From contig NZ_JASFYE010000001.1 in NCBI RefSeq assembly GCF_030055425.1, positions 116,901 to 180,900 of the forward strand: a stretch of DNA of 64,000 bases. The letters run 5' to 3'. Numbering within the stretch: position 1 is the stretch's first letter; each line of letters starts with the position of its first letter. Shown here piece by piece: positions 11,166 through 56,593 of this stretch. The notes beneath the pieces are model-generated. The model had not been told where the DNA came from and searched no databases. It saw only the letters and a program-made list of their open reading frames with translations. The position numbers were made by a program, and so were the translations under genes. This stretch comes from Methanothermobacter sp. (GTDB lineage: Archaea > Methanobacteriota > Methanobacteria > Methanobacteriales > Methanothermobacteraceae).

Positions 11166-12422
11166 TCAACCCCTTCTGAATGAACTTATCAGGCTGCTCC
11201 TGAAGAGTACCAGGAGTACCATTACAAATCCCAGGGCGGTCTGTATGTTGCCCAGGAGATCCAGGAGATCTGAACTCACAGGCAGCTCCATGGGGGGTGC
11301 TGTTCGATCGTCTGGTAGTGGTGTGTAGTAGACACCAACCGCCCTTGAACTTGGTTTGACGTTTATGTCCTTGGGTTCAACATAGTTCACACCCACAAGG
11401 AATCCGTTCTTTATTGCCCTGTTTATGGATCTTGCTATGGCCTCTGCACTGTAACCATTCTTTCTGACCGATGCCCTCACAATCTCCTGGGTGGTCTGCA
11501 CAACACCTGCCTCCTCTGTTCCGTACACCGAAACTGAAACAGAGCCGTTTGTCACTGTTATGGCGTCCTTAAGGGCGTCGTATGCGTAGATGACCTTGAG
11601 TTTACTTCCATCTATCGGGCAGACTTGATAGCTTTCGGCTGCAGGGTAACCTATGCTCCAGCCGCACTCGTCGCATACCTTGACGTAGGGCTCATCCATT
11701 GGATAACCTGTCTCATTGAGGTTCTCAGGGGTGAACATGTCCCCCGTGGATACCCCTGAGGCGAGGTTCACTGCACCACCACCGTATTTTTCACCGGCGT
11801 CCTTTGCAACCTCCTCGAAGACCTTTCCAACTATGTAGGTGGCTGAGTAACCATCCCTTATCATCTTACCTATGTTCACCGCTGTCTCCTGGCGCACCCT
11901 TGTTGCGGTACCATACTTGGGGTTACCATGTGTGTTCCTGAGGTGTATTATTGCCCCCTTCTTCCCTGGTGGGAGGACAGCAATACCTCCTGAGTATGGT
12001 GTCACCGTTATTGTACCGTCATCCTCCACGATAACCACGTAGGCATCGAAGGATCCACCAACAGCCGCACCTATACCAGGGCCGCCACACATTACCCTTA
12101 TTCCAGGGTAACTGTTTGCTGCTGATGCTGCCTCTGCGGCTGTGGCCCCATTCTCAAGGCGGTTTATAACATCCATTATCGCCATGAGCCTCGTTATAGA
12201 CTCGCCTTCACCCCCAGAGAGGACAGCGAAACGTTTCTCCTTGGACATGAGAAAGGTGGACTGGAACATGTTCTGTGCAAAGGACATACTCCCTGCTGCT
12301 GCCCCGTTGGGGTCCACACCTGTTGGGTCCGTTATTACGATGACGTTCATCGTGGCGGATACCGGACCTATAAGGAGGTTAAATATGAATATCAGGGTGA
12401 TTAACTTTGAAATTTTATGCAC
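11166..12422 (-). CDS. Exported, membrane-anchored protein of unknown function
   Basis: This 418-residue protein has a signal peptide (about 1-23, ending VSA), a large exported region and a C-terminal membrane segment (about 392-408) with a basic tail. The exported part has Gly-rich blocks (GGPGIGAAVGGS, GGGAVNLASGVSTG) and a cysteine cluster CDECG...CP near 258-280 that looks like part of a metal ribbon. I do not recognise the family. GTG start behind GGAGGGTAACCG is convincing. It follows the 145-residue POTRA-like gene by 3 bases, so the two are surely co-transcribed, next to the pseudomurein genes. Confidence 0.7.
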   Translation of the reverse strand: MHKISKLITLIFIFNLLIGPVSATMNVIVITDPTGVDPNGAAAGSMSFAQNMFQSTFLMSKEKRFAVLSGGEGESITRLMAIMDVINRLENGATAAEAASAANSYPGIRVMCGGPGIGAAVGGSFDAYVVIVEDDGTITVTPYSGGIAVLPPGKKGAIIHLRNTHGNPKYGTATRVRQETAVNIGKMIRDGYSATYIVGKVFEEVAKDAGEKYGGGAVNLASGVSTGDMFTPENLNETGYPMDEPYVKVCDECGWSIGYPAAESYQVCPIDGSKLKVIYAYDALKDAITVTNGSVSVSVYGTEEAGVVQTTQEIVRASVRKNGYSAEAIARSINRAIKNGFLVGVNYVEPKDINVKPSSRAVGVYYTPLPDDRTAPPMELPVSSDLLDLLGNIQTALGFVMVLLVLFRSSLISSFRRG

Positions 12423-12425
12423 CGG

Positions 12426-12863
12426 TTACCCTCCTGTTCTGTTGGTGATCTTAACGGTCGAAAAGTCCTCGATGACATTAACCGTCACTATACCAGTTCT
12501 GGTGTCCACCTTCACGTCTGCAGCCGCTATTGGTGTGACACGTGTTCCGGGTATTGTTGTTCTCTTAACAAATTTCTCTGCGTTTTCTATTGCCTCGCTC
12601 AGGGGAACCTTCCTCTTGGATGTTACAAGTATATCCCCCTTTATGTAGCTCCCTGGTCTGAATCCAGCAGCATACACGTTGGTCTTTATAGATGAGAGTG
12701 GAACTATGTCGTTACCCTTCACTATGACACCCGCTATTGGAACTCCCCCTGTATCCTCCATTGATGAGGCATAGGCAAGGTAGGTCATAACGCGCCCCGA
12801 TAGGATGAGTATGAAGGCTAGGAGGAGTATCACAAGCGTGTCCCTTCTGATCTTTATGAGCAT
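12426..12863 (-). CDS. Single-pass membrane protein with POTRA/FtsQ-like ectodomain (candidate)
   Basis: This 145-residue protein has a short basic N-terminus, one membrane segment (about 10-32) and an exported domain of about 100 residues. That domain reads like a POTRA unit: VIVKGNDIVPLSSI, then a helix region and FRPGSYIKGDI, a second helix (SEAIENAEKFVKR), and paired strands ending VTVNVIEDF. N-terminal anchor plus POTRA is the plan of bacterial FtsQ/DivIB. The match is by eye only. The ATG follows AAGGTGAA. It leads an operon with the 418-residue gene and DUF356. Confidence 0.6.
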   Translation of the reverse strand: MLIKIRRDTLVILLLAFILILSGRVMTYLAYASSMEDTGGVPIAGVIVKGNDIVPLSSIKTNVYAAGFRPGSYIKGDILVTSKRKVPLSEAIENAEKFVKRTTIPGTRVTPIAAADVKVDTRTGIVTVNVIEDFSTVKITNRTGG

Positions 12864-12923
12864 TACACTTCACCTTTAAACTGCACTTCATTACAGTTAC
12901 TGAATATTAATTCTCGGCTCAAG

Positions 12924-12933
12924 GTTTATAAAG
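12924..12933 (-). promoter_or_regulatory. TATA box of the surface-protein operon
   Basis: On the minus strand the sequence CTTTATAAACC is centred about 65 bases before the ATG at 12863. It predicts a leader of about 40 bases containing the AAGGTGAA ribosome-binding site. Confidence 0.5.
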
Positions 12934-12990
12934 ATTGAGCAGCATGAGATGGTGCTGGACTGGTATGCTGATAAAATATCCGGCGGCCAT

Positions 12991-12997
12991 AAAAAAG
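12991..12997 (-). terminator. Oligo-T terminator of the pseudomurein operon
   Basis: A run of seven T on the minus strand lies 5 bases beyond the Mur ligase stop codon. Archaeal RNA polymerase commonly terminates at such tracts. It separates the pseudomurein operon from the following surface-protein operon, which has its own TATA box. Confidence 0.5.
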
Positions 12998-13002
12998 TTA
13001 AT

Positions 13003-14409
13003 TCAGGAGTTTTTACTGGTTAAACCTTCTATAACCTCCGTTGCAGGGTCCATTCCCTGGGCCCCAAGGAGGAGAACCGTATCACTGGGCTTTGCATTTT
13101 CCAGAACTCTTCTGAGTGCCTCCCTCAGATTTTCGATATGGGTATACCTTATCCCATTCTCATCCAGAACACCCAGGAAGACCCTCCTCTCGTTTTCAAG
13201 GACCCTGTTCTGCTCATCAACAAGGTCGCTGCTTGATGTTATCACCAGCTCAACATCAAGACCCTTCACTGAGTCTGCCAGGGCCTCTGCATTCATGATA
13301 TTGATGTCCTCCCCCCTGGATCCCCTTATGGCATTCACAACCCAAAGCCTTCCATTGATGTCAGAGGCCGCGCTTTTAACCGTTGCCCTTATGCCGTCCG
13401 GGTTGTGGGCGAAATCGTCAATGACCCGGGGATTATCCATGAGAAGAGTGAATCTCCTCTTAAGTGGCCTGTAAGTTTTAACACCCATCCTCACATCCTC
13501 ATATGAGAATCCCAGTTCCAGTGCCGCTGTGACCGCTGCAAGGGTGTTCTGTATGAAGTGTTCACCGGTGAATGGGAGTTCATCTCTCTGAACTACAGGA
13601 TCGTCTCCACAGTAGATCCCATCACCAGTGTACCTTACAGTTCCATGGGATCCATAGAAGACCGTCCTGAGGAGGGGGTTAACATCTGCCATTGCCCTGA
13701 CCCTCTCATCATCGGAGTTCAGTACAGCAACCCCTGATTCAACTGCCCTGAGGGCTCCTGAAACCTCCCTGAAGACGTCATCCACCGATTCAACGAGTCC
13801 TATGTGGTCCATTGCAACGTTGGTTATGACAATCATCTCTGGCTGGATTGATGAGGTCATGATGTGGGCGTGGTCTCTCATGACCCTTCCAAGCCAGCCC
13901 TGAACCTCTGAAACCTCGATGACCATGAATTCCAGCTGCTCCTTACTGGCAGCCTCTGCTATCTGCTGTGCAACGACGGGGTCAATGAGTGTGTTGAACT
14001 CTGACCTTGAATCTGTATTTGTGTAGGATGACCTGCCAGCTGTGGTTATGATGTGGTTGATCATGTGGGTGGTGGTTGATTTCCCGTTGGTTCCGGTTAC
14101 AGCTATCCTCCGGGAGGACGAGGCAAACCGGTTTATGGTCCATGAAAGTGCAAGGGCATTTGCGATTTCAATCCTATCCACAAGGATGATTGGCACATCC
14201 AGAACCCCTGTGTCGGACCTCAAATCCTGGGTTATTATGGCTGCAACACCCCTTTCTGAGGCAATCTGAATACCCCTATCGTCGATCCAGTGCCTTATAA
14301 CAATGTCACCTTCCTCTGCAGCCCCCAGGGTTGTGAATTTACCCCTGAATTCTCCTCCACTTCCCACGAGTTTTCCTGAAACCCTCTCTGCGATTTCCTC
14401 GATGTCCAT
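13003..14409 (-). CDS. Pseudomurein Mur ligase (pMurE-like)
   Basis: This 468-residue ligase is homologous to bacterial MurC/D/E/F and adds an amino acid to the pseudomurein peptide using ATP. The ATP loop TGTNGKSTTT (105-114), the central MurE/F-like region with VAMDHIG, and the C-terminal ligase domain (RVIDDFAHNPDG) are all present. From memory, the M. thermautotrophicus homologue has been characterised as pMurE. The frame stays open to a GTG/ATG at 14481, but ATG 14409 has the best site (GGTGG then 5 bases). It is last in an operon with the MraY-like and ATP-grasp genes. Confidence 0.85.
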   Translation of the reverse strand: MDIEEIAERVSGKLVGSGGEFRGKFTTLGAAEEGDIVIRHWIDDRGIQIASERGVAAIITQDLRSDTGVLDVPIILVDRIEIANALALSWTINRFASSSRRIAVTGTNGKSTTTHMINHIITTAGRSSYTNTDSRSEFNTLIDPVVAQQIAEAASKEQLEFMVIEVSEVQGWLGRVMRDHAHIMTSSIQPEMIVITNVAMDHIGLVESVDDVFREVSGALRAVESGVAVLNSDDERVRAMADVNPLLRTVFYGSHGTVRYTGDGIYCGDDPVVQRDELPFTGEHFIQNTLAAVTAALELGFSYEDVRMGVKTYRPLKRRFTLLMDNPRVIDDFAHNPDGIRATVKSAASDINGRLWVVNAIRGSRGEDINIMNAEALADSVKGLDVELVITSSSDLVDEQNRVLENERRVFLGVLDENGIRYTHIENLREALRRVLENAKPSDTVLLLGAQGMDPATEVIEGLTSKNS

Positions 14410-14487
14410 CTTATCCACCATCCTCTGAAGTTTCTGATGGCAGGGACGGCGATGTTGAGAGCTCCACAATATCCATACCATCCACCA

Positions 14488-15546
14488 TCAGAATTTGAAC
14501 CCGCTTAGGTAGAGTCCAAGGCCGCAGACAGCCGCGGTTATCAGCCAGTAGAGCAGCACGATCCTCCTCTCGGACATTCCACGGTAGTGGAGTGTGTGGT
14601 GCAATGGCTCCACAGGTAGTCTGATGACTCCTGCACGGTGAAGGAGGCTGATTATAACTGAGACCACGGGGACAGCTATGGCGAGAACACCGAAATAAAC
14701 TTTATCTGTGAGCATCACAGCCGTTGCATATCCTGCTCCAAGGGCAAATGAACCTGTGTCACCCATGAATATGCTGGCCGGGTGCCTGTTGAATACAAGA
14801 AAACCTGCAGAGATCCCTGCAAGGACCACGAATGGAAGAGCTGCTGCAGATAATCCCAGGAGCAGTGCACATGATAGAGAGGCTATGAACATTATCCCTG
14901 AGGCCATCCCATCCATACCATCTATCAGGTTCACCGCGTTGATGGCACCCACCATTCCCCCGATAACAATGGGTGCCGCTGCAATACCCAGATTGAATCC
15001 TCCAAGTCTGGTAACCGCGCCACCAATAACAAGGAATACCCCTATCATGAGCTGGGCGAGTATCTTCTCACCCTCGCTCACCTCGCTCTTTATGGGTGCC
15101 TCACCCACCACCTCAACAAACCCCCTCTCCAGGAGCTCCTCCACATCCCTTTTTGCCTTATCTGTGGCCGCCCTTGCCTCCTCCCCTGGTTTCAGCACCA
15201 GCTGGCCAACCTCAAGGGGACCGTCAGATACGTTTCTGATTATCCTCTGGACCTCCTTAACCTTAAGTCCAATCAGGTCGTCGAGGAGTCCCACAATGGC
15301 AGATGTGAGGATTATGAGTGCTGTGAGGACAAGGTATGGGTTGTTGCGGTAGATGATGGTTACAAGAAGCACTGCAAGGAGCATGCCAAGGCCCCCCATT
15401 GTGGGTGTCCCTGCCTTGTGGCTGTGCTCTGTAACTATTGGCCTGTCCCCGATACCCGCACTTCTTAGAACGTTCCTTATAAAGAGTGTGAAGGCCGCTG
15501 ACGCGGCGGCACTTATAATGAATGCTGCTAACCCAATCTCCATCAT
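14488..15546 (-). CDS. MraY-like phospho-sugar-peptide transferase of pseudomurein synthesis
   Basis: This 352-residue polytopic protein of the MraY/WecA family probably loads the pseudomurein precursor onto the lipid carrier. MraY features are clear: KAGTPTMGGLG (45-55), the DD pair in GLLDD (86-90), NAVNLIDGMDG, FMGDTGSFALG and a His-rich loop PLHHTLHYRG, the MraY signature rather than WecA. An extra hydrophilic segment of about 65 residues (95-160) interrupts the loop after the DD pair. It overlaps the ATP-grasp gene by 4 bases (ATGA). A second ATG at 15543 is equally possible. Confidence 0.85.
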   Translation of the reverse strand: MMEIGLAAFIISAAASAAFTLFIRNVLRSAGIGDRPIVTEHSHKAGTPTMGGLGMLLAVLLVTIIYRNNPYLVLTALIILTSAIVGLLDDLIGLKVKEVQRIIRNVSDGPLEVGQLVLKPGEEARAATDKAKRDVEELLERGFVEVVGEAPIKSEVSEGEKILAQLMIGVFLVIGGAVTRLGGFNLGIAAAPIVIGGMVGAINAVNLIDGMDGMASGIMFIASLSCALLLGLSAAALPFVVLAGISAGFLVFNRHPASIFMGDTGSFALGAGYATAVMLTDKVYFGVLAIAVPVVSVIISLLHRAGVIRLPVEPLHHTLHYRGMSERRIVLLYWLITAAVCGLGLYLSGFKF

Positions 15547-16619
15547 ATCACCCTGAGTCTCTTCATGATCAGATCAAGTTTCTCACTATTCTCAGCCCTT
15601 GCTGTGAGCCTCATATGACTCTGAGGCCCGTGCAACAGCCACTTTACCCCCTCAGGCATTAATGATTCGATATTCCCTGGATTTCCCAGGGGTATCTCCA
15701 GCGCATGGTAATCCTCTCTTTTAAGTTTATTGGGGTTCCAGTCCCCAATTGCCATGTCCACAAGGCTGTGCATTGGATTTATTCCTGTGGCGGCCTCGGA
15801 GATGTACCTTGTACCGCTGGGCCTTGTGTTGACCTCTATAGCATAGAGGATACCGTCGTCAGAGAGTATCATGTCAACGTCCGTGTTTCCCTCCGCTCCA
15901 AGGAGTTCAGTTATCCTGGAGGCCATTTTAATGCCTTCATCTCCATTAAAGCCCTCAATGACTGCGGGGGCCCTCTTCACCTTCCCCAGTGGGTGGATTC
16001 CCTCCGTACTTGTGGGGCCCTTGTCCACAGCCACAAGGGGGAATGTTTGCCCATCCCAGCGGAGGACCTCCACTGAGATCTCAACTCCCTGTATGTATTC
16101 CTCCATGATTGCAGATTCATGGGAGCCGAGGTATTCCTCCACATCAGTATATGAAGATGCAACCTTTATGTTTGATCCCCCCTGCCCCCCTCTCTGTTTA
16201 AGGACGGTGGGGAACCCCCTTACTTCATCTGCAGTCCCTATCAGAGCATACTCTGGTGTTTTTATACCGTTTTCAGTGAAGAACTCCTTGGTTTTGAGTT
16301 TATCGGTGGAGATCTCTGCCGCCCCTTCGCCAGAGGCAACAACTGGAATCCCGTGACTCTCCTCAAGTTCCGTCTTAAGCCTGGCAACGTCTCTGAGGGG
16401 ACCGTCGACACCTATGAGGGGTACAACCGCGTCGACATCCTCCCTCAGTGCAATTTCCAGGGGTGCATCCATGCCACGGGGCACTATGAAGTGGGAGTCT
16501 GCTAGTTCAAGGTTGGGTGCCTCTGGATTTGACTCTGAAAGTAGGGTGGTAACTCCCCTTGATGATGCATAGTCTGCAACGTCATTGAATAGTCTTGAGC
16601 CAATGAATAGGATCCTCAT
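15543..16619 (-). CDS. ATP-grasp enzyme (CarB-like) of the pseudomurein operon
   Basis: This 358-residue ATP-grasp protein is related to the carbamoyl-phosphate synthase large subunit and D-Ala-D-Ala ligase class. It has an N-terminal Rossmann-like preATP domain (MRILFIGSRLF), KQRGGQGGSNI as the ATP-grasp glycine loop (about 140-150), and the metal site AIEVNTRPSG near 265-275. Genes of this type are conserved with MraY-like and Mur-like genes in pseudomurein-bearing archaea and are thought to form a bond in the precursor. The exact reaction is not known. It heads the operon. Confidence 0.8.
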   Translation of the reverse strand: MRILFIGSRLFNDVADYASSRGVTTLLSESNPEAPNLELADSHFIVPRGMDAPLEIALREDVDAVVPLIGVDGPLRDVARLKTELEESHGIPVVASGEGAAEISTDKLKTKEFFTENGIKTPEYALIGTADEVRGFPTVLKQRGGQGGSNIKVASSYTDVEEYLGSHESAIMEEYIQGVEISVEVLRWDGQTFPLVAVDKGPTSTEGIHPLGKVKRAPAVIEGFNGDEGIKMASRITELLGAEGNTDVDMILSDDGILYAIEVNTRPSGTRYISEAATGINPMHSLVDMAIGDWNPNKLKREDYHALEIPLGNPGNIESLMPEGVKWLLHGPQSHMRLTARAENSEKLDLIMKRLRVI

Positions 16620-55516: not shown

Positions 55517-56593
55517 TTATTCCTTCACCCCGAATGAAGTGGCGAATATGAGTGAGCTGAGAAATATGAATGTCATGAGCGCTGTTCCGTTTATTGTCCT
55601 GTTTATTATGAAGAGTCCTATGAGTGCCTGGGACATGAAGGCTGCAAGTGCGCCTGTGAGGAGAACCTCCCTTCCAAGGTATGTTTTTGAGCCATTTTCC
55701 CTCATATCCCGGTACATGTAGAGCATCCTGAGGCCCATGATAATGATGCCCACACACCAGATTAAAAGGAAGAACATTGTAATGTAACCAAAGTCATATG
55801 CCCATCCAAATATTCCAGGCACCATGTAATCTATCACATCCTTCTTGTTGACCAGTATGCCATAGAAGACCGGATAGGGAAGGCCAAAGAAGAGTATCAG
55901 CTGGAGTGGCAGTGAAATGTAGCCGTCTGCAAATCCACTTGAGAGTTCACCCCAGTAGGATGACATGGGGTTATGTCCAAGGAGGGTTGTGTTCTTGAGT
56001 ACAAGTTTGAGGCTCGGGAGTGAAAAGGTTTCAAGCCTTTCTATACGGAGGAGGGGGCTTAAAACAGGCATCTGAAGTATTCTTGAGAGTAACTCCAGGC
56101 CCCCGAATCCTGCGACCGCGATGAAAGCGAAGCCAAGAACCCTCTTAACTGTTATGATGGATTTCTGCCTCATTGACTTGGAGATCAGAAAGAAACCTAT
56201 CAGCAGCCCCAGGAGCCACAGGAGAAGGAATGATCTATGCATGAGGCCCCCAAAAACGGTTATTCCTGCCATGAGAATATAAACGAATCCCCTGAGTCCA
56301 CCCACCTCAACCCCTGAGTCCTCCATGATTGCAAGGGCTGCAAGGGATGATATGGTAACAAGAAGTGCTATGGGGCCAAATGGGTGCGTGAATTCACTCT
56401 GCCCAAAGGACATGAAGAGCGCCACAACATCAAGGCCAAATATTATATTGAATCCTATCCCCAGCACAAGACAGAGGAACAGTATCATGCTGAGGGAAAG
56501 GGGTGCCAGGTTCAGCAGGAATATCATGGTCGCATACATGAGGATGCCGACCTCGACTATGAACTGAAGGTGATTCTGTGCTATGAGGGCCAA
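55517..56593 (-). CDS. Polytopic membrane protein of unknown function
   Basis: This 358-residue protein has about nine to ten membrane segments, with one larger outward or inward loop near 190-230 (RIERLETFSLPSLKLVLKN, then LLGHNPMSSYWGELSSGFADGY). The layout resembles O-antigen-polymerase-like or lipid-linked-sugar proteins, but no motif proves this. TTG start has a perfect GGAGG-N6 site. It lies 23 bases upstream of DUF1890 on the same strand and so probably heads the C1-gene operon. A relation to C1 metabolism is unclear. Confidence 0.7.
   Translation of the reverse strand: MALIAQNHLQFIVEVGILMYATMIFLLNLAPLSLSMILFLCLVLGIGFNIIFGLDVVALFMSFGQSEFTHPFGPIALLVTISSLAALAIMEDSGVEVGGLRGFVYILMAGITVFGGLMHRSFLLLWLLGLLIGFFLISKSMRQKSIITVKRVLGFAFIAVAGFGGLELLSRILQMPVLSPLLRIERLETFSLPSLKLVLKNTTLLGHNPMSSYWGELSSGFADGYISLPLQLILFFGLPYPVFYGILVNKKDVIDYMVPGIFGWAYDFGYITMFFLLIWCVGIIIMGLRMLYMYRDMRENGSKTYLGREVLLTGALAAFMSQALIGLFIINRTINGTALMTFIFLSSLIFATSFGVKE

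Follow-up and report, generated by a model that had tools for sequence, protein, structure and literature searches.

Gene content and organization of the locus

The window, a 64,000-nucleotide stretch of a Methanothermobacter genome, carries on its minus strand a series of genes in the order ATP-grasp, MraY, pMurE, Mfer763, and Mfer764. The first three provide the cell wall context. The Ddl-like ATP-grasp protein (15543–16619, minus strand) scores 499.7 bits against NF053643, for which the cut-off is 500. The MraY-like transferase (MraY_archaea; 14488–15546, minus strand) matches NF053644 with E = 9.2e-163, and the pseudomurein peptide ligase pMurE (13003–14481, minus strand) matches NF053648 with E = 3.8e-210. 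The Mfer763 open reading frame runs from ATG to stop at exactly 12426–12863 (minus strand) and encodes a predicted bitopic POTRA protein of 145 residues. It matches the uncharacterized NCBIfam family NF053641 (Mfer763_fam) with E = 6.6e-71 and 236.9 bits over model positions 1–137 of 137, which exceeds the curated cut-off of 170 bits; the Pfam search matched no family. A sequence-only reading of this DNA had placed a 145-residue gene here, next to MraY-like and Mur-ligase genes. The family match and the orthologues across the phylum show that the gene is real, and both neighbors are present, but that reading overlooked the nearest gene, Mfer764 (11166–12422, minus strand), which starts 3 bp past the Mfer763 stop codon.

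The 139-bp gap between pMurE and Mfer763 (12864–13002, minus strand) contains, as read from the sequence, a T-run at 12991–12996 and a TATA-like TTTATAAA at 12925–12932. These elements suggest that the Mfer763–Mfer764 pair may be a transcription unit of its own in Methanothermobacter.

Both families have been described before. Lupo et al. 2025 (PMC11915815) reported five OGs in clusters A and B that are exclusive to Methanopyrales and Methanobacteriales. Cluster A includes OG0001472, with one TM, and OG0001162, with the already published Sec signal, and both were termed “devoid of known domains” (PMC11915815). Paired by position and features, Mfer763 must be OG0001472 and Mfer764 must be OG0001162; NF053641 and OG0001472 are the same family, with the same single TM, the same place in cluster A, and the same restriction to the two orders. 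To the published account of OG0001472, which has no known domain, the present analysis adds the POTRA fold and the tight pairing with Mfer764; the Ntn-like reading of Mfer764 is also new. In the part of the literature on pseudomurein archaea that was covered, no report of a POTRA protein was found.

Distribution and pairing of Mfer763 and Mfer764

Orthologues of Mfer763 have been found in 139 of the 152 genomes of the phylum, and the presence/absence pattern of Mfer764 across genomes is nearly the same. In a wider sample of 297 genomes, four more carriers were identified, all from one genus, inferred to be Methanopyrus, with the gene order unchanged. Outside Methanobacteria and these Methanopyrus-like genomes, no real match was found among the other archaea sampled. 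The phylogenetic profile therefore agrees with the earlier expectation that the gene is confined to pseudomurein archaea. No relatives were found in viral contigs or phage records. Two further matches to NF053641 have been attributed to chance: the match in genome G196 (E = 8e-5) is a polytopic protein with wall genes absent nearby, and the second, weak match in genome G055 sits in an 1818-aa open reading frame for an adhesin-like protein. The 13 genomes of the phylum without Mfer763 are mostly fragmented or incomplete; an above-cut-off pMurE is present in six of them, often close to where the contig ends, and is missing from the remaining seven. With pMurE at contig ends or missing too, these gaps are probably the result of assembly loss.

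Mfer764 lies directly downstream of Mfer763 in 74 of 77 loci, and the median distance between the two genes is 4 bp. Two of the three unpaired loci (L035 and L036) are at contig ends; in the third (L038), Mfer763 is followed by other genes. This last Mfer763 gene (706–1149 of L038) belongs to a genome that is 63% complete (G148) and has no Mfer764 match. The two genes also stay paired in loci that lack an adjacent pMurE and MraY, such as L024, L028, and L088; in two of these three, other Mur-type ligases are encoded upstream of the pair. Because the pair is kept together apart from pMurE and MraY, the closest functional link of Mfer763 is Mfer764. In L028 and similar Methanobrevibacter loci, where the pair is found away from pMurE, DUF356, an HTH gene, and a proteasome-activating ATPase gene are kept downstream. 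In genome G006 (L007), Mfer764 is split over two frames, by either a sequencing error or a genuine frameshift, while it is intact in the near relative G001 (L006).

Predicted structure of Mfer764

The Mfer764 protein of the window has 418 residues (NF053642, E = 5.2e-220). Its features are a signal peptide, a putative Ntn-like domain, an insert of the Cys4 type, and, at the C-terminal side, a predicted membrane helix. The signal peptide comprises residues 1–23 (12354–12422, minus strand), as judged from conservation, with a predicted cut between A23 and T24. Residues A23, T24, and N26 are invariant in 36 sequences, and the A-T-x-N motif is retained in four Methanopyrus-like genomes. The putative Ntn-hydrolase-like domain (residues 24–219; 11766–12353, minus strand) has been assigned from the AlphaFold2 model and Foldseek, and the C-terminal hydrophobic helix (residues 384–406; 11205–11273, minus strand) from the model and hydropathy.

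The model is a mediocre one (pLDDT 76), and the leading Foldseek matches, with a best E-value of 2.3e-4 and a probability of 1.0, have low TM-scores. These matches, taspase-1, DUF1028, GlmS glutaminase, Anbu, the proteasome, and glycosylasparaginase, all have the Ntn fold. An hhalign comparison with DUF1028 gave no homology (P = 0.23), and a T1-anchored comparison with the same family gave a weak N-terminal motif similarity, seen in 1 of 1000 shuffles, which is suggestive only. From the model, Mfer764 probably has the Ntn fold. Ntn enzymes use an N-terminal threonine, and cleavage before T24 would yield one in Mfer764. The odds that Mfer764 performs Ntn catalysis are put at slightly under even. 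It is a possible candidate for the missing pseudomurein transpeptidase or amidohydrolase.

Predicted topology and POTRA fold of Mfer763

The AlphaFold2 model and hydropathy of Mfer763 give a basic N-terminus of 7 residues, a hydrophobic helix at residues 7–33 (12765–12845, minus strand), and an exported domain at about residues 41–135, in agreement with the bitopic plan of the sequence-only reading (a short cytoplasmic N-terminus, one helix, and an exported domain). The helix is strongly conserved by column entropy. Nine of 26 positions are invariant across all 58 Methanobacteriales sequences, and residues 8, 12, 16, 20, 24, 28, and 32 are invariant in 58 of 58, forming a complete i+4 phase. 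The chance of such a phase is ~2e-4 by counting, a figure that ignores shared ancestry. A Fourier test for helical periodicity of the conservation, based on entropy, does not reach significance (p = 0.16), even with every residue of the i+4 stripe invariant. The Methanopyrus-like sequences retain I12, L19, G23, R24, Y28, and A32. This invariant stripe suggests that the helix has an intramembrane partner. Residues 30–32 form a conserved A/S-x-A motif, which would also fit a cleaved signal peptide.

The POTRA domain (about residues 41–135; 12459–12743, minus strand) has been assigned from AlphaFold2, Foldseek, and a profile search. The model, built from 58 sequences with the Methanopyrus-like sequences left out, has a mean pLDDT of 85 and about 90 in the domain. 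Its elements are b1 (45–49), a1 (56–65), a hairpin (72–80), a2 (88–100), b2 (112–119), and b3 (125–132), giving the order b-a-a-b-b of a POTRA domain. The top Foldseek match in the PDB is FtsQ in the FtsB-FtsL-FtsQ complex (8hhf_Q; E = 3e-3, probability 1.00, 126 columns), an E-value above 1e-3, with modest TM-scores of about 0.4. Below FtsQ, dozens of matches are mostly the POTRA domains of BamA, Omp85, and TamA. Using hmmsearch, a family profile that included the Methanopyrus-like rows was compared with 177,635 PDB sequences; only four matches were obtained at E ≤ 10, all of them BamA/YaeT POTRA proteins, the best with E = 2.6e-4 and b1-a1 in register. The Pfam POTRA family PF07244 gives weak matches to 3 of the 58 members, with E = 0.029 at best. 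With AlphaFold2 and Foldseek joined by an independent sequence profile, the assignment is solid for a prediction, and we have little doubt that the exported domain of Mfer763 adopts the POTRA fold. The POTRA reading made from the sequence is thus borne out by the predicted topology and by a POTRA-dominated Foldseek list, and structure prediction gave no sign of a different fold.

The sequence-only reading had gone further and proposed an archaeal FtsQ that links wall synthesis with division. Mfer763 and FtsQ/DivIB are both predicted to have an N-in bitopic helix followed straight by a POTRA domain, and both are encoded beside mraY and mur genes, so that the wall-cluster position of Mfer763 parallels the dcw cluster. 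The Foldseek match to FtsQ spans TM and POTRA, and E. coli FtsQ aligns in register over the TM-POTRA junction, although not significantly. On the other hand, Mfer763 has 145 residues compared to 276 in E. coli FtsQ, ends 13 residues past the last POTRA strand, and lacks the C-terminal FtsQ beta-domain in the model. In FtsQ, this beta-domain binds FtsB/FtsL, while its POTRA and TM are believed to act in recruitment (PMC6134095). Going by the model, Mfer763 has the first half only of the FtsQ plan (TM plus POTRA). The POTRA_1 profile (PF08478) has no match in 200 related genomes, including this one, while 8 of 14 control genomes are positive. The profile comparison therefore supports a POTRA-type similarity, with BamA POTRA2 closer than FtsQ, but not membership in the POTRA_1/FtsQ family, and the identification as FtsQ is left unsupported.

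The proposed link to division is not supported either. This genome gave no match to the DivIC family (FtsB-like, PF04977), and its ftsZ gene is located on a different contig. Mfer763 has no ftsA/ftsZ neighbors, and its conserved partner is Mfer764, not a gene of division. The M. jannaschii, Haloferax, and Methanosarcina controls are positive for the FtsZ family and negative for Mfer763; since FtsZ is present in control archaea without it, Mfer763 is not part of a general archaeal divisome, but it may have a septal role specific to the wall. It is unlikely that Mfer763 is a true FtsQ counterpart, a divisome hub coupling FtsZ-ring constriction to septal pseudomurein synthesis, and a role in the wall only fits equally well.

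The similarity to BamA raises another alternative, in which Mfer763 is a POTRA-type chaperone that receives or guides wall proteins just after their export, or Mfer764 itself, in the way that BamA POTRAs handle client polypeptides. Mfer763 shares the fold of the BamA/Omp85 POTRA domains, its best sequence similarity is to b1-a1 of POTRA2, and the gene for an exported protein is only 3 bp away. However, BamA and Omp85 have a beta-barrel, whereas Mfer763 has none; it would carry a single POTRA anchored in the cytoplasmic membrane, the archaeon being monoderm and having no outer membrane. The conserved TM face suggests a partner within the membrane and not clients that bind transiently, and the chaperone role is also improbable. 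A merely coincidental resemblance, with Mfer763 as an unrelated small membrane subunit of another b-a-a-b-b fold, would suit the absence of a Pfam match and a Foldseek score that is not decisive alone, but is very improbable given a POTRA-dominated Foldseek list and a profile search returning POTRA proteins only.

Proposed role in pseudomurein assembly

To our knowledge, the enzymes of the extracytoplasmic steps of pseudomurein assembly, including cross-linking, have not been assigned. In cross-linking, a terminal residue is removed and Glu is joined to Lys of a neighboring peptide; PBP-like genes are not known in pseudomurein archaea, and a role for transglutaminases has been suggested (PMC2812497). 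A secreted enzyme of the Ntn type would be another chemically plausible option.

We propose that Mfer763 and Mfer764 combine outside the cytoplasm into a membrane-anchored complex for pseudomurein assembly, with the POTRA domain as its scaffold; we give this a probability of roughly 0.6. Taken separately, a role in pseudomurein assembly and a complex between the two proteins are both likely, the former slightly more so. Beyond the computed gene, topology, POTRA fold, pairing, and restricted distribution, we infer the physical complex, the catalysis by Thr24, the substrate, and the step of the pathway. In the proposed complex, Mfer763, with its short cytoplasmic tail, TM helix, and one extracytoplasmic POTRA, would be a non-catalytic docking unit like the TM-plus-POTRA half of FtsQ. 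The exported Mfer764, with its Ntn-hydrolase-like domain and C-terminal membrane helix, would join it on the outer membrane face, where the POTRA would anchor or position it. The signal-peptide cut at A23/T24 would expose the threonine of Mfer764, and the substrate of the complex would be membrane-linked pseudomurein, its step most likely being assembly or the cross-linking of peptides. A bolder form, which we regard as rather speculative, is a two-protein extracytoplasmic synthase unit with no known counterpart, in which the POTRA scaffold and a secreted Ntn-type transpeptidase, with a threonine nucleophile freed by signal peptidase, replace the absent penicillin-binding proteins.

The putative POTRA scaffold and its Ntn-like exported partner, encoded in a conserved cluster, provide two concrete candidates for pseudomurein assembly. 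If the proposal is true, the TM-POTRA module known from the wall and division machines of bacteria would also occur beside archaeal mur-type genes, either co-inherited with them or separately recruited.

A further wall candidate lies elsewhere in the window. In a Methanopyrus-like genome, the neighbor of Mfer764 (L106, 3092–4201), which has no Pfam match, is homologous to a polytopic protein encoded at 55517–56593 (minus strand), and a second copy of the latter has been observed (G000:C1:398283-399335). The polytopic protein is probably OG0000796 of Lupo et al., and is a candidate wall glycan polymerase or transporter.
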